DNA from: Pseudomonadota bacterium
Lineage (GTDB): Bacteria; Pseudomonadota; Alphaproteobacteria; Rhizobiales; JAKPQE01
DNA: 64,000 nt
Assembly: GCA_029572955.1 (NCBI GenBank)
Contig: JAKPQE010000139.1
Coordinates: forward strand, 1 to 64,000
Reading direction: 5' to 3'
Positions 53,584-64,000 of the stretch are shown one piece after another; position 1 is the first letter of the stretch; every line of letters starts with the position of its first letter. The position numbers and the translations under genes are program-made. The notes below the pieces were generated by a model, which did not search any database, was not told the DNA's origin, and was given only the letters and a program-made list of their open reading frames with translations.

Positions 53584-53660
53584 GGCGGAGTAGCTCAGTT
53601 GGTCAGAGCAGAGGAATCATAATCCTTGTGTCGGGGGTTCAAATCCCTCCTCCGCTACCA
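53584..53660 (+). tRNA. tRNA-Met (CAT), elongator
   Basis: A 77-base cloverleaf with encoded CCA. The acceptor GGCGGAG pairs with CTCCGCT. The anticodon stem GAGGA/TCCTT surrounds loop ATCATAA with anticodon CAT, and the T-loop is GGTTCAAAT. It lacks the three GC pairs of the initiator anticodon stem and has a G1-U72 pair, so it is an elongator (or, less likely, an Ile-CAU tRNA that needs lysidine). Confidence 0.96.
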
Positions 53661-53723: not shown

Positions 53724-53898
53724 CGTTTCCGGGCTACCCCGCCGCCGGCCGGCTACAGAAAAACCCGCCGGCATTGAGCTTTTCCGACGAGCGACTTGAT
53801 TCCCGACCCCGTTGCGGGCCATTACCCACAAAGAAGCGGTCGTTGTGTACGGCCGCCCCGGGCCTTGCCCGACCGCCGAGAATGACCGGAGCGCCGAC

Positions 53899-55380
53899 GT
53901 GCCCAACGAAGCCCCCGCTGCGATCGAAACCGACGTCCTCGTCGTCGGCGCCGGCCCGGCCGGCCTCACCGCCTCCTATCTGTTGACGAAGGCCGGCGTC
54001 GCGACGACCGTCATCGAGGCCGATCCCGTCTATGTCGGCGGCATCAGCCGCACCGCGAGCTACAGGGGCTTCCTCTTCGACATCGGCGGCCACCGCTTCT
54101 TTTCCAAGTCGCGCGAGGTCGTCGACCTCTGGCACGAGCTCCTGCCCGACGACATCATCGAGCGCCGGCGCATGTCGCGCATCTATTACGGCGGCAAGTT
54201 CTACAGCTACCCGCTGAAGGCCTTCGAGGCGCTGACCAATCTCGGCATCGTCGAGAGCGGCCTCTGCGTCCTCTCCTACGGCTGGCGGCGGGTCTTTCCC
54301 TACCAGAACCCGTCCAACCTGCATCAGTGGGTCGCCAACAATTTCGGCGAGCGCCTGTTCCGCATCTTCTTCAAGACCTACACCGAGAAGGTTTGGGGCA
54401 TGGCCTGCGACGACATCTCGGCCGACTGGGCGGCGCAGCGCATCAAGGGCCTCGATCTCGTCTCGGCGGTGATGAACGCGCTGAAGAAGGCGATCGCGCC
54501 GAAGCGGCCGAAATCGGCCGACGGCAAGGTCATCAAGACGCTGATCGACAGCTTCGAATATCCGCGCCGCGGCCCCGGCATGATGTGGGAAGCAGCCGCC
54601 ACGAAGACCCGCGCCGCCGGCGGCATCATCGAGATGGACTGCCGCCTCTCCCGCCTCGCATTCGATGCCGGCACCGGCCGCTGGACGATCGAGGGCAAGG
54701 GCGGCGACGGCGCCGTGAAGCGCTGGAGCGCCCGCCACGTCATCTCCTCGGCACCCGTCACCGAGCTGATGGCGACCATCGATCCGCCGCCGGCGAGCCT
54801 TGCCGCCGCGACCGGCCTCGGCTATCGCGACTTCCTCACCGTCGCCCTCGTCATCGACCACCCGGACCTCTTCCCGGACAACTGGATCTACATCCACGAG
54901 CCGGACGTCACGGTCGGCCGCATCCAGAATTTCCGCTCCTGGTCGCCGGAAATGGTGCCGGACGAGAAGCTCGCCTGCATCGGCCTCGAATATTTCTGCT
55001 TCGAGGGCGACGATCTCTGGACGATGCCCGACGCCGACCTCATCGCGCTGGCCAAACGCGAGCTCGGCCAGATCGGCCTCGTCGGCGCCGACCACGTGCT
55101 CGACGGCACCGTGGTGCGCCAGAAGAAGGCCTATCCGGTCTACGACGCCGAATATGCCGAACGCATGGCCGCCATCCGCGCCGACCTTTCCGCCAACTGT
55201 CCGGGCCTGCATCTCGTCGGCCGCAACGGCATGCACAAGTACAACAACCAGGACCACTCGATGATGACCGCCATGCTGACGGCGCGGAACATCATCGCCG
55301 GCAAGGACCTCTACGACGTCTGGCACGTCAACGAGGACGCCGAGTATCACGAGGCCGGCACGCGCGGCGAAGAGGCCTGA
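53899..55380 (+). CDS. FAD-dependent amine-oxidase/mutase-like oxidoreductase
   Basis: A 493-residue flavoprotein. The Rossmann dinucleotide motif VLVVGAGPAGLTASYLL is at residues 13-29, with VGGISRTASYRGFLFDIGGHRFFSKS just after. The closing FAD motif is HLVGRNGMHKYNNQDHSMMTAML. The overall plan matches the NAD(P)-binding amine oxidases next to polysaccharide genes and distantly UDP-galactopyranose mutase. The GTG at 53899 follows GGAG by 7 bases. GtrA follows 4 bases later in the same operon. A role in sugar modification for the facing glycan locus is inferred. Confidence 0.87.
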   Translation: MPNEAPAAIETDVLVVGAGPAGLTASYLLTKAGVATTVIEADPVYVGGISRTASYRGFLFDIGGHRFFSKSREVVDLWHELLPDDIIERRRMSRIYYGGKFYSYPLKAFEALTNLGIVESGLCVLSYGWRRVFPYQNPSNLHQWVANNFGERLFRIFFKTYTEKVWGMACDDISADWAAQRIKGLDLVSAVMNALKKAIAPKRPKSADGKVIKTLIDSFEYPRRGPGMMWEAAATKTRAAGGIIEMDCRLSRLAFDAGTGRWTIEGKGGDGAVKRWSARHVISSAPVTELMATIDPPPASLAAATGLGYRDFLTVALVIDHPDLFPDNWIYIHEPDVTVGRIQNFRSWSPEMVPDEKLACIGLEYFCFEGDDLWTMPDADLIALAKRELGQIGLVGADHVLDGTVVRQKKAYPVYDAEYAERMAAIRADLSANCPGLHLVGRNGMHKYNNQDHSMMTAMLTARNIIAGKDLYDVWHVNEDAEYHEAGTRGEEA

Positions 55381-55384
55381 GGCG

Positions 55385-55774
55385 ATGCACATCGCCGTCC
55401 AGTTCCCGCGTTACGTGGCCGTCAGCGCCGCCGCCCTCGCCGTCGATTTCGGCGTCTTCCTCGGCCTCACGCGCCTCGGCACCGATCCGACCATTGCCGG
55501 CGCCCTCGGCTATGCCGCCGGCCTCGTGCTGCACTACGCCCTGTCGCGCCGCTTCGTCTTCGTCGGGCGCGGGGAAAAGAGCGAGCGGCGCCTGTTCACC
55601 GAATTCGCGCTGACCGGCTTCGTCGGCATCGCCCTCACCGCGGCGGTGATCACCGTCGCCCATGACGTCTTCGGCTTTGCGCCGGTCACCGCCAAGGTCG
55701 CCGCCGTCGTCGTCAGCTTCCTTGCGGTCTTCGTCATGCGCCGCTCGGTCGTCTTCGCCGAAGCCACGCGATGA
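55385..55774 (+). CDS. GtrA-family membrane protein
   Basis: A 129-residue protein with four transmembrane helices and the GtrA pattern PRYVAVSAAALAVDFGVFLGLT and LGYAAGLVLHYALSRRFVF. GtrA-like proteins translocate undecaprenyl-phosphate-linked sugars across the inner membrane. It starts 4 bases after the FAD oxidoreductase. It is convergent with the leftward glycan operon, overlapping the last gene there by 41 bases. Confidence 0.92.
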   Translation: MHIAVQFPRYVAVSAAALAVDFGVFLGLTRLGTDPTIAGALGYAAGLVLHYALSRRFVFVGRGEKSERRLFTEFALTGFVGIALTAAVITVAHDVFGFAPVTAKVAAVVVSFLAVFVMRRSVVFAEATR

Positions 55775-57077
55775 GCGCCGCCATCGTCTGCCGCTCGCGC
55801 ACCAGCGTCAGGGCGAGGACGAGGTAGAACAGCACCACGCCGCCATAGCCGAAGCGGAAGTCGGGCGCGACCATCAGCACGAGCAGCATCAACTGATAGA
55901 TTAGGCCGATGGCGAGATAGGCGAGAACCGCCCTGTCCCAGCGCGTGGTGCGTCGCCGCCAGGCGAGCCAGAGGGTGAGCAGGGCCGCCCCGACCATCGG
56001 CAGCGAATGGCTCATCAGCCGCTTCGGCGCCGCCGCGACATAGGCGTTGACGACGTCGTTCCACGGCGGCCAGTAGAGCGAAATGTTGGGGTTCGGATCG
56101 ATCCCCGGGTGGTATTGCCAGATGCCCTTCAGGAAGGTGCCGATGACGCCGGCGCGCGTCGCCAGATACTCCCGCGGATGGGCGATGATCGCCGCGATCC
56201 AGCGCCGCTGTAGATCGCTGACGTCGTCGCCCCGGACGCGGCCCAGCATCTCCTCCTTCGGCTCGCCCCAGATCATCGGCGCGACGGAATCGAACCAGAA
56301 GTGGCGCTTCAGCACCTCGAGATCCTGGGCCGGGAACGCCGCCGGCGGCAGGAGCAGCGTGTCGGTCTTGATCGAGATGCCGGCAAGATCGAAAAGGAAG
56401 ATGACCGACTGCGGATAGAGCCTGTCCGCCCGGGCGACCTGATAGACGAAGAGGAAATTGAGCGCGACCACCGCCGCGGCGATTGCGGCAAAGCCTGCGC
56501 CGCGCCGCCAGCTTCCCGAAAAGATGTAGATTTCGGCGAGCGCGAAGACCGGAATGAGCAGCACGACCTCCGGCCGCATGACGACGCCGAGACCGGCGAG
56601 CGCCGCGCGGGCCCAGAGCAGGCCCGGCCGGCCGACCGCCGAGAGCACCAGCATGGCAAGGACGATCGCCGCGAACCAGGTGTCCTTGGAGACCGCCGCG
56701 ACATAGCCGAGCACCGGCGGAAAGGCGGCGAGCGCGGCCGCCGCCGCGACCGCCGGCCAGCGGCCAAGGCCGGCCGAGGCGAAGAGGATCGCGAACGAGA
56801 CGAGGATGACGGCGGCGGTCACGAGGGTCAGCGCGGCGACAGCGAGGCTGCCGGCGCCCGAAAGGTGCCAGAGCCAGGAGACGATCGTGACGTGCCAGTC
56901 GCTATAGCTGCCCCGCAGTGCCTGCTCGAACATGTTGATCGCATCGCCGTTCATGCGACCGGGCAGCGACGGCAGCGCCATCAGGACGCCGATCGCCGCC
57001 GCGGCCGCGATGCCACCCGCGCCGAGGGTGGAAGCGCGAGGGGCGCCGGTTTCGTTCGCGCTCGCCATGGCCGTCAA
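55734..57077 (-). CDS. Multi-spanning membrane protein, GT-C-like
   Basis: A 447-residue protein with about ten to eleven transmembrane helices, an early periplasmic-loop motif GRMNGDAINMFEQALRGSYSDWH, and a long soluble loop at about 220-330 (containing QYHPGIDPNPNISLYWPPWND). The topology, with an acidic first loop, resembles lipid-linked-sugar glycosyltransferases of the GT-C fold, but no family could be named. ATGA overlap with the upstream HAD gene places it last in the operon. Confidence 0.75.
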   Translation of the reverse strand: MTAMASANETGAPRASTLGAGGIAAAAAIGVLMALPSLPGRMNGDAINMFEQALRGSYSDWHVTIVSWLWHLSGAGSLAVAALTLVTAAVILVSFAILFASAGLGRWPAVAAAAALAAFPPVLGYVAAVSKDTWFAAIVLAMLVLSAVGRPGLLWARAALAGLGVVMRPEVVLLIPVFALAEIYIFSGSWRRGAGFAAIAAAVVALNFLFVYQVARADRLYPQSVIFLFDLAGISIKTDTLLLPPAAFPAQDLEVLKRHFWFDSVAPMIWGEPKEEMLGRVRGDDVSDLQRRWIAAIIAHPREYLATRAGVIGTFLKGIWQYHPGIDPNPNISLYWPPWNDVVNAYVAAAPKRLMSHSLPMVGAALLTLWLAWRRRTTRWDRAVLAYLAIGLIYQLMLLVLMVAPDFRFGYGGVVLFYLVLALTLVRERQTMAALIAWLRRRRPSGA

Positions 57078-59089
57078 ACCTTCAGCCGCCGGCGCACCGT
57101 CCGCACGGCCGCCTCGGCATTCAGCTGCAGCTTCTGGCCCGGCGTCAGCGTCGAAAGGAAGGCCGGCTTCCAGTAGACCGCGCGGAAGAACGGATGGAGG
57201 CGGCCGAAGGGTAGCCGGCCGATGCGCGGCACGATCGGCCGATAGGGTGCCTCGCCGAAACCGTCGGCATGTTCGACCGGCCCGAAATGGCGCACGTCCT
57301 CGGCCTGCGGCTGCAGCAGCAGCTTCTCGAAGCGCTCCGACAGCACCGGCCGGAGGCCGACGAGCGCGTCGACATCGGCGATGCCGGCGAGCGCCTCGGC
57401 CGCATCGCGCACCGCCTCGTGCAGGATCCGCGCGATCTCGTGACGACGCTCTTCCGCGCGCGTCATCGCGACGAGCACCGGCCGGAAGCCGTCGCCCTCA
57501 CGGCGGATGTTGGATATCCCCGGCTGCGGCGCCGAGAACAGCAGCTCCACCACCTCGACGCTCTCGCGGATGGCCCGGGCGATGCCGCTCGGCTCGCCGG
57601 CGGCGAAAAGGAAGCCCGAGATGCGGTCGTGGAACGGATCGGCGACGCCGGCCCGATAGGGATAGGTGCCGAGATAGGCGCCGTGCACCGCCGGATCGAC
57701 ATCGGCGAAACGCCGGCCGAGATCGACGAGACCGCGTTGCAGGCTGCCGCGCCAGCCGAGATCGACGACCAGCGAACGCTCGTCGAAGACGCCCGAGCCG
57801 CCGAGATAGTCGAGGAGCACCGCGCGCTCGGCGGCGGCGGTGTCGCGCACGCGCGGCCAGAGCGCCCGGAAAAGGTCGCGCAAGGCATCCCATTCGTGGC
57901 CGCGCTCGATCGTCTGGTCGGCCGAGGACAGCCGCGCCTCGATCTCCCGGCGCACCGCGTCCTCGTCCGGGTCGATGCCGACACGCACGAGGAAGTCGCG
58001 CACCCGGATCCGCGTCAGGCTGCCGACGAGGAATTCCATCGAGTCCTTGTCGAGCTGGTCGATCGCCGCGAAGTTGAAGCAGCGGCGCGACGCCCAGAGA
58101 TAGTTCGACGGCGGGGCGTCGGCCTCGGCAAAGAGCAGGTCGTAGGCCTGCCGGAAGACGAGGCCGTCGCGGGCGAGGAAATGCACGCGCTCGCTGCCCC
58201 GCCCGCGCGCCTCGGCGAGAATGAAGGCCGCCATGGCAAGGGCCGACGGCGCGACGAGGCCGTAGCCGAGCCGGCGCCAATAGGCGGTCTCCGGGTCGTC
58301 GTCGTGGCGTTCGGCCTGTGCGCCGAGGGCGGCGAAGGCCTCGGTGAGCCAGTCGCCCGGCCGGTAGGTCCAGCCCCGCGCCCGGCGCTCCTGCGGCGGC
58401 GTCAGCACGAAGCCGCCGACGCCCGCCCGCTCGGCGGCCCTGCCGTCGCTGCCGGGATTGTCGCCGATATGGACGATGGCATCGGTCGCGGCGAGGCCGA
58501 GCGCATGGCGCACATGGGCCCAGGCACTGCCGTCACCCTTCGGGGCGTCGGTCTCGGCCGAAATGAACACGCGCTCGAAGCCGGCAATGCCGCTCGCCGC
58601 GAGAATGGCCTCGATCGTCTCGCGCGGCAGGTACATGTCGGTGACGACGATCACCCGCTTGCCGGCCGCAACGAGCCGGTCGAAAGCGCCGACCACCATC
58701 GGGTCGGCCCGCGTCGCCGCCACCTCGAAACGGGTCTCGAGCGCGGCGAGGGCATCGAGCGCCGCCCGGTCGATGCCCGTCGCCCCGGCGAGCGCGTCGT
58801 AGATTTCGGCAAGCGTCACGTCGCGCCGCCCGGCCAGCGCCGCCGTCTCGCGCGCCGTCATTTCGGCCGCGACCCGGGCGCTCCCGAAATCGCCGGCCGC
58901 CGGCGCCCACGCCTCGGGCAGATGCGGCTGCATCGCCGAAAAGAGATCGATCGGCCGCGCCAGCGGCCGCGTCACCAGCGTGTCGAAAAGATCGAAGGAG
59001 ACGACCGCCGCCGACTTCGCCGCCGCCTCGAAGCGGGCGATCGTCTCGGCGTCGCTCTGCCGGTAGCTCGATGTCCGTTCCGATGCCAT
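57074..59089 (-). CDS. HAD-containing protein of polysaccharide loci (COG5610-like)
   Basis: A 671-residue protein. The first 250 residues are a HAD hydrolase domain with motif I VSFDLFDTLV, motif II-like VVTDMYLPRETI and motif III/IV HIGDNPGSDGRAA. The remaining 420 residues form an alpha/beta region of unknown role (SERVHFLARDGLVFRQAYDLL, VDLGWRGSLQRGLVDLGRR). Such long HAD proteins occur beside glycosyltransferases in surface-glycan clusters. It starts 7 bases after the GT2 gene and overlaps the membrane-protein gene by 4 bases. Confidence 0.85.
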   Translation of the reverse strand: MASERTSSYRQSDAETIARFEAAAKSAAVVSFDLFDTLVTRPLARPIDLFSAMQPHLPEAWAPAAGDFGSARVAAEMTARETAALAGRRDVTLAEIYDALAGATGIDRAALDALAALETRFEVAATRADPMVVGAFDRLVAAGKRVIVVTDMYLPRETIEAILAASGIAGFERVFISAETDAPKGDGSAWAHVRHALGLAATDAIVHIGDNPGSDGRAAERAGVGGFVLTPPQERRARGWTYRPGDWLTEAFAALGAQAERHDDDPETAYWRRLGYGLVAPSALAMAAFILAEARGRGSERVHFLARDGLVFRQAYDLLFAEADAPPSNYLWASRRCFNFAAIDQLDKDSMEFLVGSLTRIRVRDFLVRVGIDPDEDAVRREIEARLSSADQTIERGHEWDALRDLFRALWPRVRDTAAAERAVLLDYLGGSGVFDERSLVVDLGWRGSLQRGLVDLGRRFADVDPAVHGAYLGTYPYRAGVADPFHDRISGFLFAAGEPSGIARAIRESVEVVELLFSAPQPGISNIRREGDGFRPVLVAMTRAEERRHEIARILHEAVRDAAEALAGIADVDALVGLRPVLSERFEKLLLQPQAEDVRHFGPVEHADGFGEAPYRPIVPRIGRLPFGRLHPFFRAVYWKPAFLSTLTPGQKLQLNAEAAVRTVRRRLKV

Positions 59090-59096
59090 GCCGCGC

Positions 59097-60059
59097 TCAC
59101 CGCATTCCGAAGAAGCGCCTGATCCTGTTCGAGAGGCGGCGCCTGCGCCGGGCCGCGGCATCGGCCGCCGCCTTGTCCATCCGCTGCCCGACCTCGGCCG
59201 TCTGGTCCTTCACGGTCTGCAGGTCGCGCGCCAGATTGGCAAGGACGCCGAGGCCGACCGTGCCCTTTTCGAGATCGTCGCGCAGCAGCGCGTTGACCAG
59301 CAGGGTGTGCTGCGTCATGTGCCGGTCGAAGCCGGCGGTAATCGAATTGCCGAACTCGCTCGGCGCGCCCTCGGTGCGGATGTGGTAGTGCGCGAGGTGT
59401 TCCGGCACGACGGCGATGTCGTAGCGCTCGAGGAAGCGCAGGTTGAACTCCCAGTCGCCGAGAACCGGCATCGCCTCGTTGTAGTAGCCGATTTCCTCGA
59501 GCGCCGAACGCGCGTAGAGGAAGGAGATCGGCGGAAAGGTGTTGAGGTGCAGCATCCGCCAGAACGAGACGTCGCGCGCCCAGGAATTGAAGCTCGAACG
59601 CTCGACCTCGGTGACCGTCGTACCCTCGATCGCCTCGCGGACCATCTCCGACCAGGCAATGACACCGCGATAGGTCGGCGATGTCGGCGCCATCAGCGCC
59701 GCGACGGTCCGCGCCAGGAACTCCGGATGCCAGGCATCGTCGTCGTCGTGGATCACGCAGAAGCGCGAGTCGGTCGCCCTGAGGCCGATATTGGACGCCG
59801 CCTCCATGCCGACCGAGGCGCCGTTGTGGATGACCAGCAGCCGCTCGCCGTAACGCGGCAGGTATTCGGCGACGAGCGCCTCGACCGGCGCCGCCTCGCC
59901 GCCGTCGTTGACGATGACCTGAACCCAGTTTGGGTGGCTCTGGCAAAGGACGCTCTCGATCGCCCGCCGCAAGAGCAGCGGGCGGTTCTTGGTGCGCGTG
60001 ACGATCGCCACGCCGTCCCCGCCCGGTGCGGTCAGTCTCGAAGGCGCCGCCTGGCTCAT
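59097..60059 (-). CDS. GT2 glycosyltransferase
   Basis: A 320-residue GT-A glycosyltransferase. The opening GVAIVTRTKNRPLLLRRAIESVLCQSH and the nucleotide-metal DxD-type CVIHDDDDAWHPEFL are clear. The acceptor-side LNTFPPISFLYARSALEEIGYY and a C-terminal helical basic tail (ARRRRRLSNRIRRFF), likely membrane-associated, complete it. The donor sugar is unknown. It is the fifth gene of the leftward operon, 51 bases after the GT4-GT2 fusion. Confidence 0.92.
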   Translation of the reverse strand: MSQAAPSRLTAPGGDGVAIVTRTKNRPLLLRRAIESVLCQSHPNWVQVIVNDGGEAAPVEALVAEYLPRYGERLLVIHNGASVGMEAASNIGLRATDSRFCVIHDDDDAWHPEFLARTVAALMAPTSPTYRGVIAWSEMVREAIEGTTVTEVERSSFNSWARDVSFWRMLHLNTFPPISFLYARSALEEIGYYNEAMPVLGDWEFNLRFLERYDIAVVPEHLAHYHIRTEGAPSEFGNSITAGFDRHMTQHTLLVNALLRDDLEKGTVGLGVLANLARDLQTVKDQTAEVGQRMDKAAADAAARRRRRLSNRIRRFFGMR

Positions 60060-60110
60060 CGTCCGTCTCTCACCCTGTCGGCTCCCGGCCGCGCCCCGCA
60101 GGCGCCGGCC

Positions 60111-62300
60111 TCATCGCTGTCGTCGGCGTAGCACATTTCGGGCAAACCGCGCGATTCCATCGGCAAGGTCGCCGAGCGGCACGGCGAAGGGTATCCGGGC
60201 GCGCCGCTCCAGCCGCCGATAGCGCTGGCGCAGCTCCTCGAGTTCCTGCGCGGTGCGCCGGTGGAGATCGTCGCGGCTCTGCAGATAGCTCGCATGGCTG
60301 ATCGCCGCGCCGAGCCCGAAAGGCGCGCGCTCGAAATAGGGCCGCATGCCCCGCGCCCGGTTGATCGCATGGTCCGTCGTCGCCGACAGCCCGGTGCCGC
60401 TGATCCGGTACCAGAACAGTCCGCGCGGCACCATTTCCACCTTCATGCCATGGAACATCGCCATGCCGAGGATTTCGATGTCCTCCCGCGTCACGCCGTA
60501 GTCGGTGGTGAAGCCGCCGACCGCGACGAAGGCCGAGCGCTTCCAGAAGGCGTTGGTGTCGCCGAAGGACGACCGATAGATGCCGGCGCCGAGCGCGGCG
60601 CCGAGCGGCACCCAGAGGCGTCGCGGCTTCGCGGGCGGCATGTCGCCGTCGAACATCGGCGAGATGCAGGTCGCGACGTCGCAGCCGGTATGGAGCGCGA
60701 CGGCGAGGAAGGTTTCGATTTCTTCGGGGACGGCGAGGTTGTCGTCGTCCATGAACAGCAGATAGTCGCCCTTCGCGGCGGCCGCCGCGGCGTTGCGCGC
60801 CGCACTCACATAGGCGTTTTCCTGGCGCAGCAGCGTCCAGCCCCGCGCGGCGAATTCGGGCTCGAGACCCTCGAGCATCGCCAGCGCCTCCGGCGACCGG
60901 CTGCCGTCGTCGACCAGCACCACCTCGATGCGCCGATAGGTCTGCGCCCGGATCGAGGCGAGCCCCTCGGCGAGCCTTGCCGGCCGCTCGTAATGCGTGA
61001 GGCAGATCGTGACGAGCGGCCCGTCCGGCCCCGGCGGCGGCGCCCCGGCATCGTCTCCGGCGCCTGCCGCGATCGCCTCGGCGGCCCAGTCGAGCCAGCG
61101 ATCGCGCACCGCGTCCTGCCCGACGGCGCGGCGGGCCGGCCGCTGCCCCTGCGCAAGGGCACGGGAAAGCTGGCCGGCAAAGCTCGCCGGCGTCGGCTCG
61201 AACAGGCATTCGGCGCGATCCTCAGGCGCGACGAGTTCGGGGATCGCGCCGGTGTTGTTGGCAAGGAACGGGACGCCGTGGTGCAGGCACTCGACGACGG
61301 TGAAGCCGAACGTCTCGCTCTCGGACGGCATCACCGCCAGCACGCCCGGCCGCGACAGCGCGGCGAGCGCCGCGTCGCGGTCGAGATCGGTGCGAATGTC
61401 GACCGGCACGCCCCAGTTCCGCGATCGCTCGGCGAGGAAGGCGAGCGGATCGAAACCGTCCTGAACCGGCGCCCGGCCGAAGAAACGGATCGCCGGGATG
61501 CCCCGGCGCACCTCCGGGTCCAGCCGATCGAGCGCGCCGCAGAAAAGGTGCAGCCCCTTGCGCCGCTCGAGCCGGCCGAAGAACACCACCTCCGCCACCG
61601 GCCGGCGCGCGGCGGTGTCGACGTCCCGCGGCGCCCCGTCGACATGGTTCTGGATGACTACCGTGTTCGCCGCCAGCTCCCAGCCGTGCCGCACCATCCA
61701 GTCGCGCACATAGGCGCTCGGGCAGACCAGCCAGTCGGCCCGGCGGGCGCATTCGCGCTCCATGAAGTCCATCTCGACGTCGTCGACGCTCGAGGCGAAG
61801 GCGCGATTTCCCTCGCGGACCCAGGCGCCCGGCCCCTGCGCATTCACCATCACCGGCAGGTGGCGATAGGCGATGCCCTGGCGCCGCGCCGCGACGACGA
61901 AGAAGGCGAGCCCGAGCCAGTCCGCAAAGACCGCGAGATCGAACTCGCCGGCCCGCGGCTCGAGCCAATGATGGACGAGCCAGGCGCGCGCCCGGGGCGC
62001 GGCCATTTCGAGACTGGGCAGATCCTCGAGCGAGGCTTCGTTGATCGCGACGAGCCGGATGCCGAGCCCGGCATAGTGATCGCGCCAACGGGCGTAGTCG
62101 TAGGCGTCCGGACAAAGGCTGTCGACGAAGGCGACGGTGACCTCCGCCCCGGCCCTTTGCCAGAGCAGCGCCAGCGCCGTGAACTGCGTGCCGATACCGC
62201 CATTGCGGATCGGCCCGAGGATTTCCGGCGTGACGAGCAACACGCGCTTGCCGGCAAGCCCCGCATGGGGTGTCGCCGGCGCGCCCGCCGCCCCGCTCAT
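60111..62300 (-). CDS. GT4-GT2 fused glycosyltransferase
   Basis: A 729-residue bifunctional protein. A GT-B GT4 module fills residues about 18-430 (VLLVTPEILGPIRNGGIGTQ, VVFFGRLERRKGLHLFCGAL, VMPSESETFGFTVVECLHHGVPFLANNTGAIPELV). It is followed by a GT-A GT2 module at about 455-690 (TICLTHYERPARLAEGLASIRAQTY, DYLLFMDDDNLAVPEE). Two sequential sugar additions by one polypeptide are implied. The start overlaps the hot-dog gene upstream (ATGA). It belongs to the operon with KS and hot-dog genes. Confidence 0.9.
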   Translation of the reverse strand: MSGAAGAPATPHAGLAGKRVLLVTPEILGPIRNGGIGTQFTALALLWQRAGAEVTVAFVDSLCPDAYDYARWRDHYAGLGIRLVAINEASLEDLPSLEMAAPRARAWLVHHWLEPRAGEFDLAVFADWLGLAFFVVAARRQGIAYRHLPVMVNAQGPGAWVREGNRAFASSVDDVEMDFMERECARRADWLVCPSAYVRDWMVRHGWELAANTVVIQNHVDGAPRDVDTAARRPVAEVVFFGRLERRKGLHLFCGALDRLDPEVRRGIPAIRFFGRAPVQDGFDPLAFLAERSRNWGVPVDIRTDLDRDAALAALSRPGVLAVMPSESETFGFTVVECLHHGVPFLANNTGAIPELVAPEDRAECLFEPTPASFAGQLSRALAQGQRPARRAVGQDAVRDRWLDWAAEAIAAGAGDDAGAPPPGPDGPLVTICLTHYERPARLAEGLASIRAQTYRRIEVVLVDDGSRSPEALAMLEGLEPEFAARGWTLLRQENAYVSAARNAAAAAAKGDYLLFMDDDNLAVPEEIETFLAVALHTGCDVATCISPMFDGDMPPAKPRRLWVPLGAALGAGIYRSSFGDTNAFWKRSAFVAVGGFTTDYGVTREDIEILGMAMFHGMKVEMVPRGLFWYRISGTGLSATTDHAINRARGMRPYFERAPFGLGAAISHASYLQSRDDLHRRTAQELEELRQRYRRLERRARIPFAVPLGDLADGIARFARNVLRRRQR

Positions 62301-62716
62301 CGGCTCGCCCCGGGGCCTTGCGATGCGGTGCCGGCTGCCGCGCCGGCAACGGTCGCGACGCCCATCGCGACGATCCGCCCGCCGGCATGGAGCAGCACCC
62401 GGAACGAGTGTAGCTCGCCCTCGCTGCCGACCGGCCGGGCCTCGGCGACGAGTGGCAGGTCGGGAAAGACCGGCGCGGTGAAGGTCAGGTGGAGATCGAC
62501 GATGGCATCGGTCCCGAACCACTGCCGGGCCGCCGGCTCGATGAGCGCCATCGCCATCAGCCCCGGCACCGGCGTGTCGGCGAGCCCGGCCGCGGCGGCC
62601 AGCGCGGCGTCGACATGGACCGGGTTTTCGTCGCCCGAGAGTTCGAGATAGGTGGCAAGCGCCGCGCGCGACACCGGCCCGAGCGGCACCGCCGGCAGGG
62701 ACGTCGCCCCCGTCAT
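62297..62716 (-). CDS. Catalytic MaoC-type hot-dog protein (HadB-like)
   Basis: A 139-residue single hot-dog protein with the active-site pattern SGDENPVHVD (Asp and His kept), matching (R)-3-hydroxyacyl dehydratases. It overlaps its hot-dog neighbour upstream and the GT4-GT2 gene downstream by 4 bases each. The arrangement resembles the mycobacterial HadA-HadB pair, where HadB is catalytic. The acyl carrier (ACP or CoA) is not known. Confidence 0.85.
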   Translation of the reverse strand: MTGATSLPAVPLGPVSRAALATYLELSGDENPVHVDAALAAAAGLADTPVPGLMAMALIEPAARQWFGTDAIVDLHLTFTAPVFPDLPLVAEARPVGSEGELHSFRVLLHAGGRIVAMGVATVAGAAAGTASQGPGASR

Positions 62717-63114
62717 CGGGCCGCGCCCCCGGCGAGCGGCTGGATCAGCACGGTCGAGCGCGCCTCGACGATCGTGTCGCCGGCCGCGTTGCGCGCGGTG
62801 ATGTCGACGACGAGCGACGGCTTGCCGCGCATCTCGCTGCGCCGGGCGGCGACATGTACGCGATAGGCATCGCCCTGGACGAGCGGTTCGGCGAAGCGGA
62901 AGGTCTGGCCGACATGGATCGGCACCGCGCCGGCGCCGACCGCCGCCTCGAGCAGCGCCCGCGTCGCCGGCTCGAACAGCCAGAACGCCGGATAGACGAG
63001 CGGCACCGTATCGCGGGCAAGGCCGAGGATTTCGGCGAAGCGCCCGGCCCGTTCCGGCTCGACGACGGCCTCGAAATCGACCTCGCCGAGGATATCGCCT
63101 CCGGCCTCGACCAT
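62713..63114 (-). CDS. Non-catalytic-type hot-dog protein (HadA-like)
   Basis: A 133-residue hot-dog protein of the FAS1-like dehydratase N-terminal type. The pattern FAEILGLARDTVPLVYPAFWLFEPATRAL and GAVPIHVGQTFRFAEPLVQGD is present, but the NPxH catalytic motif is absent. It probably supports binding of long acyl chains as partner of the next hot-dog protein. It starts 17 bases after the ketoacyl synthase gene. Confidence 0.82.
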   Translation of the reverse strand: MVEAGGDILGEVDFEAVVEPERAGRFAEILGLARDTVPLVYPAFWLFEPATRALLEAAVGAGAVPIHVGQTFRFAEPLVQGDAYRVHVAARRSEMRGKPSLVVDITARNAAGDTIVEARSTVLIQPLAGGAAR

Positions 63115-63130
63115 CGTCCCGCCCGCCCCG

Positions 63131-64000
63131 TCAGTTGCCTGCGCGCTTCAGGGCGATCACCGCATTGATGCCGCCGAAAGCGAAGGAGTTGCTGACCGCG
63201 GCGCGGATCTCGGCCGGCCGTCCGACATTGGGAATGACGTCGAGGGCGCATTTCGGATCGGCCTCGAGCCAGTTGATGGTCGGCGGCAGGCGGCCTTCGG
63301 CCATCGCCCGCACCGTCACGATCAGTTCGAGCGCGCCCGACGCACCGAGGCAATGGCCGTGGATCGGCTTGGTCGAGCTGACCGGAACGCTGCCGGCCCG
63401 CTCGCCGAAGACGATGCGCAGCGCCTCGGTCTCGGTGGTGTCGTTGAGCACCGTGCCGGTGCCGTGGGCGCTGACATAGTCGATGTCGGCGGCATCGAGA
63501 CCGGCCTCCTCGAGCGCCAGCATCATCGCCCGCCCCGCGCTCGCCGCGTCGGGACGCAGGAGGTCGGCCGCGTCGCTCGTCGTGCCGTAGCCGGCGAATT
63601 CGGCGAGCGCCGTGCCGCCGCGCGCCGCCAGCGACGCCTCGCTTTCGAGCACCACGATGCCGGCGCCCTCGCCGATCAGCATGCCGTTGCGGCCCTTGGA
63701 GAACGGCCGGTTGACGTCGGGCGTCAGCACCCGCATCGATTCCCAGGCCCGCATCACCGCCGAGGTGACCATGGTCTCCGAGCCGCCGGTGATCGCCCGG
63801 TCGACGACGCCGCAGCGCACCAGCGAGGCGGCGATGCCCATCGCCTGATTGGCCGAGGCGCAGGCCGAGGAAACCGCAAAGCTCGGCCCGTTGGCGCCGA
63901 TCCGCATTCCGATCTGGCAGGCGGCGGCATTGGCCATCACCTTCGGCACGGTCAGCGGATTGGTTCGCCGCTTGCTGAGGGCGAAGAAATCGTGGCAGCC
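63131..64000 (-). CDS. Beta-ketoacyl synthase, FabF-like (3' part only; gene cut by window end)
   Basis: The last 290 codons of a condensing enzyme; the 5' end lies beyond 64000. The active-site Cys is in SSACASANQAMG, the His residues are in SAHGTGT and STKPIHGHCLGASGALEL, and the C-terminal SNSFAFGGINAVIAL is typical. All three catalytic residues are present. It should extend an acyl chain by two carbons using malonyl-ACP. It is the upstream-most visible gene of an operon with two hot-dog proteins and glycosyltransferases. Confidence 0.92.
   Translation of the reverse strand, partial: GCHDFFALSKRRTNPLTVPKVMANAAACQIGMRIGANGPSFAVSSACASANQAMGIAASLVRCGVVDRAITGGSETMVTSAVMRAWESMRVLTPDVNRPFSKGRNGMLIGEGAGIVVLESEASLAARGGTALAEFAGYGTTSDAADLLRPDAASAGRAMMLALEEAGLDAADIDYVSAHGTGTVLNDTTETEALRIVFGERAGSVPVSSTKPIHGHCLGASGALELIVTVRAMAEGRLPPTINWLEADPKCALDVIPNVGRPAEIRAAVSNSFAFGGINAVIALKRAGN

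Follow-up and report, generated by a model that had tools for sequence, protein, structure and literature searches.

The window, the stretch of 64,000 nucleotides analysed here, contains the downstream half of a gene cluster that probably makes a ceramide-like glycolipid by means of a dedicated type II elongation cassette. A beta-ketoacyl-ACP synthase (KAS), a HadA/HadB-like dehydratase pair and an acyl carrier protein (ACP) are encoded together with a GNAT-fold acyltransferase of ceramide-synthase type, an LptF/G-type permease and about ten glycosyltransferase domains, and the set is best read as a variation on pathways already known for ceramide and for capsule lipids. The interpretation given earlier by the sequence-only reading, fatty-acid-synthase-type enzymes and glycosyltransferases in one glycolipid cluster, fits these results and was right in outline; overall it is partly supported. 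The set had not been recognised as a known pathway, but it does have known relatives: by its GNAT, ACP, LptF/G-type permease, GT21 glycosyltransferase and alpha-oxoamine synthase (AOS) it stands beside the pathway known for ceramide in Alphaproteobacteria and beside the capsule-lipid clusters of rkp/wcb type.

Organisation of the gene cluster

Gene content and order, homologies, co-occurrence in other genomes and intact motifs were observed directly. The window covers positions 1-64000 of contig C96, which extends to 78394 in an assembly of 3.76 Mb and 182 contigs. The seven co-directional genes reported before were all present on the minus strand at 55734-64000. In order of transcription they encode the 3' part of the KAS (63131-64000; PF00109/PF02801, intact Cys-His-His motifs), a HadA-like hotdog subunit of 133 aa (62713-63114), a HadB-like (R)-3-hydroxyacyl-ACP dehydratase of 139 aa (62297-62716; MaoC domain PF01575, 2.6e-12; motif SGDENPVH), a two-domain GT4-GT2 glycosyltransferase of 729 aa (60111-62300; PF13579/PF13692 and PF00535), a GT2 glycosyltransferase (59097-60059; PF00535, 2.6e-17), a HAD-domain protein of 671 aa (57074-59089) and a multi-spanning membrane protein (55734-57077). 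The HAD domain was visible in NCBIfam only (HAD-IA, 1.1e-4), and a relative with 51% identity directly follows HadB in the genome G001, which is a Rhodobiaceae MAG from the family to which the genome under study (G000) belongs. The membrane protein, without match in Pfam and NCBIfam, has a 42% identical paralogue on contig C125 and is a possible, unproven, GT-C type transferase. The AlphaFold2 models were too poor for use, with a pLDDT of 47 for the HAD protein and 42 for the membrane protein. The sole plus-strand overlap of the region is by 41 bases at its 3' end with the gene for GtrA (55385-55774), which is preceded by one for an FAD/NAD-binding, amine-oxidase-like oxidoreductase (both within 53812-55774, plus strand, convergent with the cluster); a tRNA-Met (CAT) lies at 53584-53660 on the plus strand.

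As had been supposed, the upstream part lies outside the window: the KAS gene is cut at the edge and the cluster continues on C96. The complete KAS gene occupies 63131-64342 (contig numbering, as for all features outside the window), starts at 64342 and encodes 403 aa. Directly upstream of it follow the genes for the ACP (64339-64629), the ceramide-synthase-type GNAT (64626-65846), a DUF4833 protein (65848-66462), a 476-aa protein (66530-67960) and the LptF/G-type permease (67957-69168). From there a run of glycosyltransferases reaches the contig end at 78394, in the order GT4, GT2, GT8, a UDP-sugar epimerase/decarboxylase-like gene and two GT4, then a radical SAM/SPASM protein, GalE (opposite strand) and a glycosyltransferase truncated by the contig end. 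The radical SAM/SPASM protein amid these glycosyltransferases (L007:455-1765; C96 about 75454-76764) is kept in G001. ATGA overlaps couple HadA/HadB, HadB/GT4-GT2, GNAT/ACP and ACP/KAS. Among the genes to be sought upstream, an ACP and an acyltransferase, the latter of GNAT fold, were present, whereas an AMP-ligase and a ketoreductase were absent from the cluster.

The N-terminal part of the truncated glycosyltransferase was found at the end of contig C158, with a shared overlap of 19 bases and a continuous reading frame, and the gene is intact in G001. On C158 an AOS is encoded together with the GT21 glycosyltransferase and both parts of an ABC exporter, the ABC-2 permease and the ATPase. One contig of G001 carries the AOS, the homologue of the cut glycosyltransferase, further glycosyltransferases, the permease, the 476-aa protein and DUF4833; another, beginning just before the GNAT gene, carries GNAT-ACP-KAS-HadA-HadB-HAD. 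From the 19 bases, the frame and this synteny we infer, with good support, that C158 and C96 are joined; that the join rests on these three elements is a point against a ceramide-like product. GT21 also matched HpnI, which counts against such a product too, but it was not accepted as HpnI since its score lies under the HpnI cut-off. The search for the same gene order elsewhere, as had been advised, showed its recurrence in G001 and that of the cassette in several other lineages. With GNAT-ACP-KAS-HadA-HadB-HAD kept in order in a second genus of the family, and the cassette found again further afield, this is no chance run of open reading frames.

A probable dedicated elongation cassette

The KAS matched Pfam ketoacyl-synt (1.6e-40), but with 390 bits remained below the NCBIfam fabF cut-off of 494. 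HadA was recognised by weak HadA/DUF4442 matches, including NCBIfam HadA, and by its position beside HadB, its conserved partner in cassette loci; the NCBIfam equivalog level was reached by neither subunit (HadB 32.7 bits vs 203, HadA 17 vs 180). Across cassette loci the Cys/His/His motifs of the KAS and the hydratase motif of HadB are conserved, and in the tree the KAS enzymes of the cassettes form a single clade (96/95), to which neither FabF nor FabB, the housekeeping enzymes of these genomes, belongs.

ACP-KAS-HadA-HadB was located close to the GNAT gene in the genome under study, G001, Labrys, Phreatobacter, Reyranellaceae and other Hyphomicrobiales; in Labrys, Phreatobacter and Reyranellaceae it is often accompanied by serine palmitoyltransferase (Spt). 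Several lineages, in part lacking an AOS nearby, have GNAT-ACP-KAS-HadA-HadB in one uninterrupted row. HadA and HadB are apparently fused in two Hyphomicrobiales loci. Enzymes of the Spt clade adjoin the cassette in Labrys and Phreatobacter, in the latter at a distance from the GNAT gene, and a contig of a Rhodoblastus MAG (L082) combines KAS, HadA and HadB with an AOS, GNAT, SDR, GT21, fatty-acid hydroxylase and a Lipid_DES protein. The last of these (L082, 1725-3405), adjoining the hydroxylase, is a bacterial protein scoring above the cut-off of Lipid_DES, the sphingolipid Delta4-desaturase family. In the open-licence papers searched, sphingolipid clusters with a KAS/Had cassette were nowhere reported. 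Mycobacterial FAS-II (KasA/KasB-AcpM-HadAB) likewise combines a KAS and an ACP with a HadA/HadB-type dehydratase pair, but sequence similarity is distant, far under the NCBIfam cut-offs, and the genomic setting differs.

In known proteobacterial ceramide pathways, the acyl-ACP synthetase AasR loads a ready-made fatty acid onto a special ACP. AasR and epimerase-type CerR were absent from every cassette locus within the stretch examined, and in cassette clusters an SDR occupies the reductase's place. At Spt loci, AasR was found in none of 11 with the cassette against 17 of 35 without it (Fisher p 0.003) and CerR in none of 11 against 23 of 35, where eight of the 11 belong to Phreatobacter or near relatives, so that Fisher values overstate independence and are indicative only. 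Genome-wide, no strong AasR match was found in G000, G001 and G020, the best in the genome under study reaching 54 bits compared with 453-491 in three Caulobacter-type relatives. The dedicated KAS/HadAB/ACP set thus seems to take the place of AasR, against which stands Labrys G050, where AasR is retained away from the cluster. A ceramide-like product made with such a cassette is favoured by the KAS clade apart from FabF/FabB, the absence of AasR at cassette loci, the ATGA coupling of GNAT, ACP and KAS and the HadA-HadB fusions in two relatives. An alphaproteobacterial-like sphingolipid cluster was also seen in a record titled Candidatus Kuenenia (L080), probably a mislabelled or mixed bin.

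Relation to ceramide synthesis

The GNAT is homologous over its full length to YghO of E. coli BL21 (34% over 377 aa, E 4e-62), which is given as the counterpart of CC_1154 of C. crescentus (PMC9386255), a protein required for dihydroceramide (PMC11324152). In the PDB the GNAT had no match by sequence. Among 80 named loci its commonest neighbours were ACP, Spt, lipid kinase and LptF/G, and Caulobacteraceae loci showed the published gene order. In the tree it falls within a clade of 27 (96/81) that holds all cassette-linked and most RkpG-linked members (outside are L117, L120 and the rkp-like one of G035) and is sister to the clade with Caulobacter-type and E. coli members. It is a homologue of bacterial ceramide synthase, not a proven orthologue, and that its clade is sister to the one of the tested CerS type counts against a ceramide-like product.

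The Caulobacter-type cluster for ceramide and ceramide phosphoglycerate comprises spt, acpR, aasR, cerR, cerS and lptF2/G2 (PMC9386255; PMC11324152). A CerS-type GNAT, a dedicated ACP, an LptF/G-type permease and alpha-oxoamine synthase chemistry are common to both, but the present cluster has an RkpG-like AOS instead of Spt, adds KAS/HadA/HadB and many glycosyltransferases, and lies in a genome without a strong AasR match. Neither a CerR epimerase nor a ceramide kinase was found in the cluster, nor any CerR at the loci searched in this genome; that the cluster lacks a reductase, the nearest SDR being on contig C102, is a further point against a ceramide-like product.

Such a product is nevertheless favoured by the homology of the GNAT to YghO, by its usual neighbours ACP, Spt and LptF/G, by the occurrence of bona fide Spt next to the cassette in Labrys as well as Phreatobacter, by the Rhodoblastus locus with Lipid_DES, fatty-acid hydroxylase and GT21, and by the AOS and GT21 joined to the cluster through contig overlap and one-contig synteny in G001.

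Capsule-type links and alternative products

Both AOSs of this genome (C158, C102) fell in an RkpG-like clade (100/99) outside the Spt clade, in a tree built without S. meliloti RkpG itself, and scored below the NCBIfam Spt cut-offs; a true Spt was rejected on this placement. The C158 enzyme is 45% identical to an AOS on S. meliloti pSymB, which has a large multidomain SDR-annotated protein on one side and an SDR on the other, with a capsule gene close by. This is the arrangement of rkp-1, and by gene order the S. meliloti enzyme would be RkpG. The base therefore need not be sphinganine, which counts against a ceramide-like lipid; besides sphinganine itself, a deoxy-base or a different amino-ketone comes into question. 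A second AOS/SDR/GNAT set, like rkp-1, is located on C102 (G000; L027:12506-19959, L028:1-8653), together with two Capsule_synth proteins and amid genes of KpsC/KpsS-like, sulfatase-family and capsule ABC type, and in Acidisoma the AOS-SDR-GNAT set likewise lies among capsule-type genes.

With the rkp-1/wcb capsule lipid-carrier region (PMC4881576; PMC3908369) the genome shares an RkpG-like-clade AOS with SDR, KpsC/KpsS-like and ABC genes (here on C102) and fatty-acid synthesis coupled to an AOS. There, however, the fatty acid synthase is of type I (RkpA/WcbR), here a type II ACP/KAS/HadAB set with a CerS-type GNAT is found; no type I synthase was detected in the genome, which gave four KAS matches, none in an open reading frame above 611 aa. 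In the PfSgaAB system of Pseudomonas (PMC12134224) an acyl assembly line also adjoins an alpha-oxoamine synthase, but there sphinganine derives from an iterative type I PKS without a type II elongation cassette.

The product may thus stand on its own as a glycolipid or serve to anchor a polysaccharide. That it is the lipid carrier of an ABC-exported surface polysaccharide of rkp/wcb type, not a free glycosphingolipid, is a serious contender, if somewhat short of an even chance, and overlaps with the favoured explanation, as the lipid itself may be ceramide-like. The RkpG-like AOS, the adjoining ABC-2 permease and ATPase, the number of glycosyltransferase domains and the second set amid capsule genes on C102, as in Acidisoma, speak for a carrier, whereas the C96/C158 cluster is devoid of KpsC/KpsS, and the LptF/G-type permease and DUF4833, common to Phreatobacter Spt clusters, indicate lipid transport. 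Tentatively, RkpG-type AOS, SDR, CerS-type GNAT and type II cassette might build a long-chain ceramide-like anchor of such a polysaccharide, by which extension the rkp/wcb carrier would be sphingoid-type.

It is less likely that the acyl chain of the cassette feeds the AOS, and hence the long-chain base, instead of N-acyl transfer. The cassette beside Spt and distant from GNAT in Phreatobacter would agree with it, as would the use of a dedicated ACP by Caulobacter Spt (PMC9386255), but the GNAT-ACP-KAS-HadA-HadB contiguity, in part without a nearby AOS, opposes it and, together with ATGA coupling, favours delivery to the GNAT.

That this is a capsule or aryl-polyene locus of the ordinary kind into which a KAS has strayed, as the numerous glycosyltransferases and sugar-nucleotide genes might suggest, is very improbable given the cassette KAS clade and its recurrent GNAT linkage across lineages. 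By the upstream check proposed before, the neighbourhood is not that of an aryl-polyene cluster, and not simply that of a capsule either; an aryl-polyene cluster was rejected on gene content, as ammonia-lyase, AMP-ligase and typical ape genes were missing among the annotated genes of 55734-78394 and of C158 from 33500. Synthesis of the very-long-chain fatty acid of lipid A hardly comes into consideration: LpxC is present and a dedicated ACP with KAS and dehydratase resembles the logic of the rhizobial AcpXL system, but the cassette ACP is of a distinct family (35.6 bits vs the AcpXL cut-off of 83) and a separate true AcpXL exists beside the cassette in G001 and G020, for which reasons this role was rejected. 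With LpxC and a canonical LptF/LptG pair, LPS appears to be present at the level tested. In one relative without an LpxC match (G055; L032), the sole LptF/LptG pair lies inside its ceramide-type cluster.

Proposed pathway and implications

For the ceramide-like glycolipid we infer reactions, chain length, base and transport as follows. KAS and HadA/HadB, with housekeeping ketoreductase and enoyl reductase, would elongate the acyl chain carried by the dedicated ACP. By condensation of an amino acid and an acyl thioester the AOS would give an amino-ketone, which an SDR would then reduce, and the GNAT would N-acylate the amino product, for which the adjacent ACP would most likely supply the chain. 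GT21 would add the first sugar and the remaining glycosyltransferases extend the glycan, before the ABC transporter and/or the LptF/G-type permease could deliver the product to the surface.

If the cassette replaces AasR, chain length would be set within the lipid cluster itself. Moreover, members of one GNAT family are paired both with Spt and with RkpG-type synthases, which links bacterial sphingolipids to the capsule lipid carrier of rhizobial/Burkholderia type.
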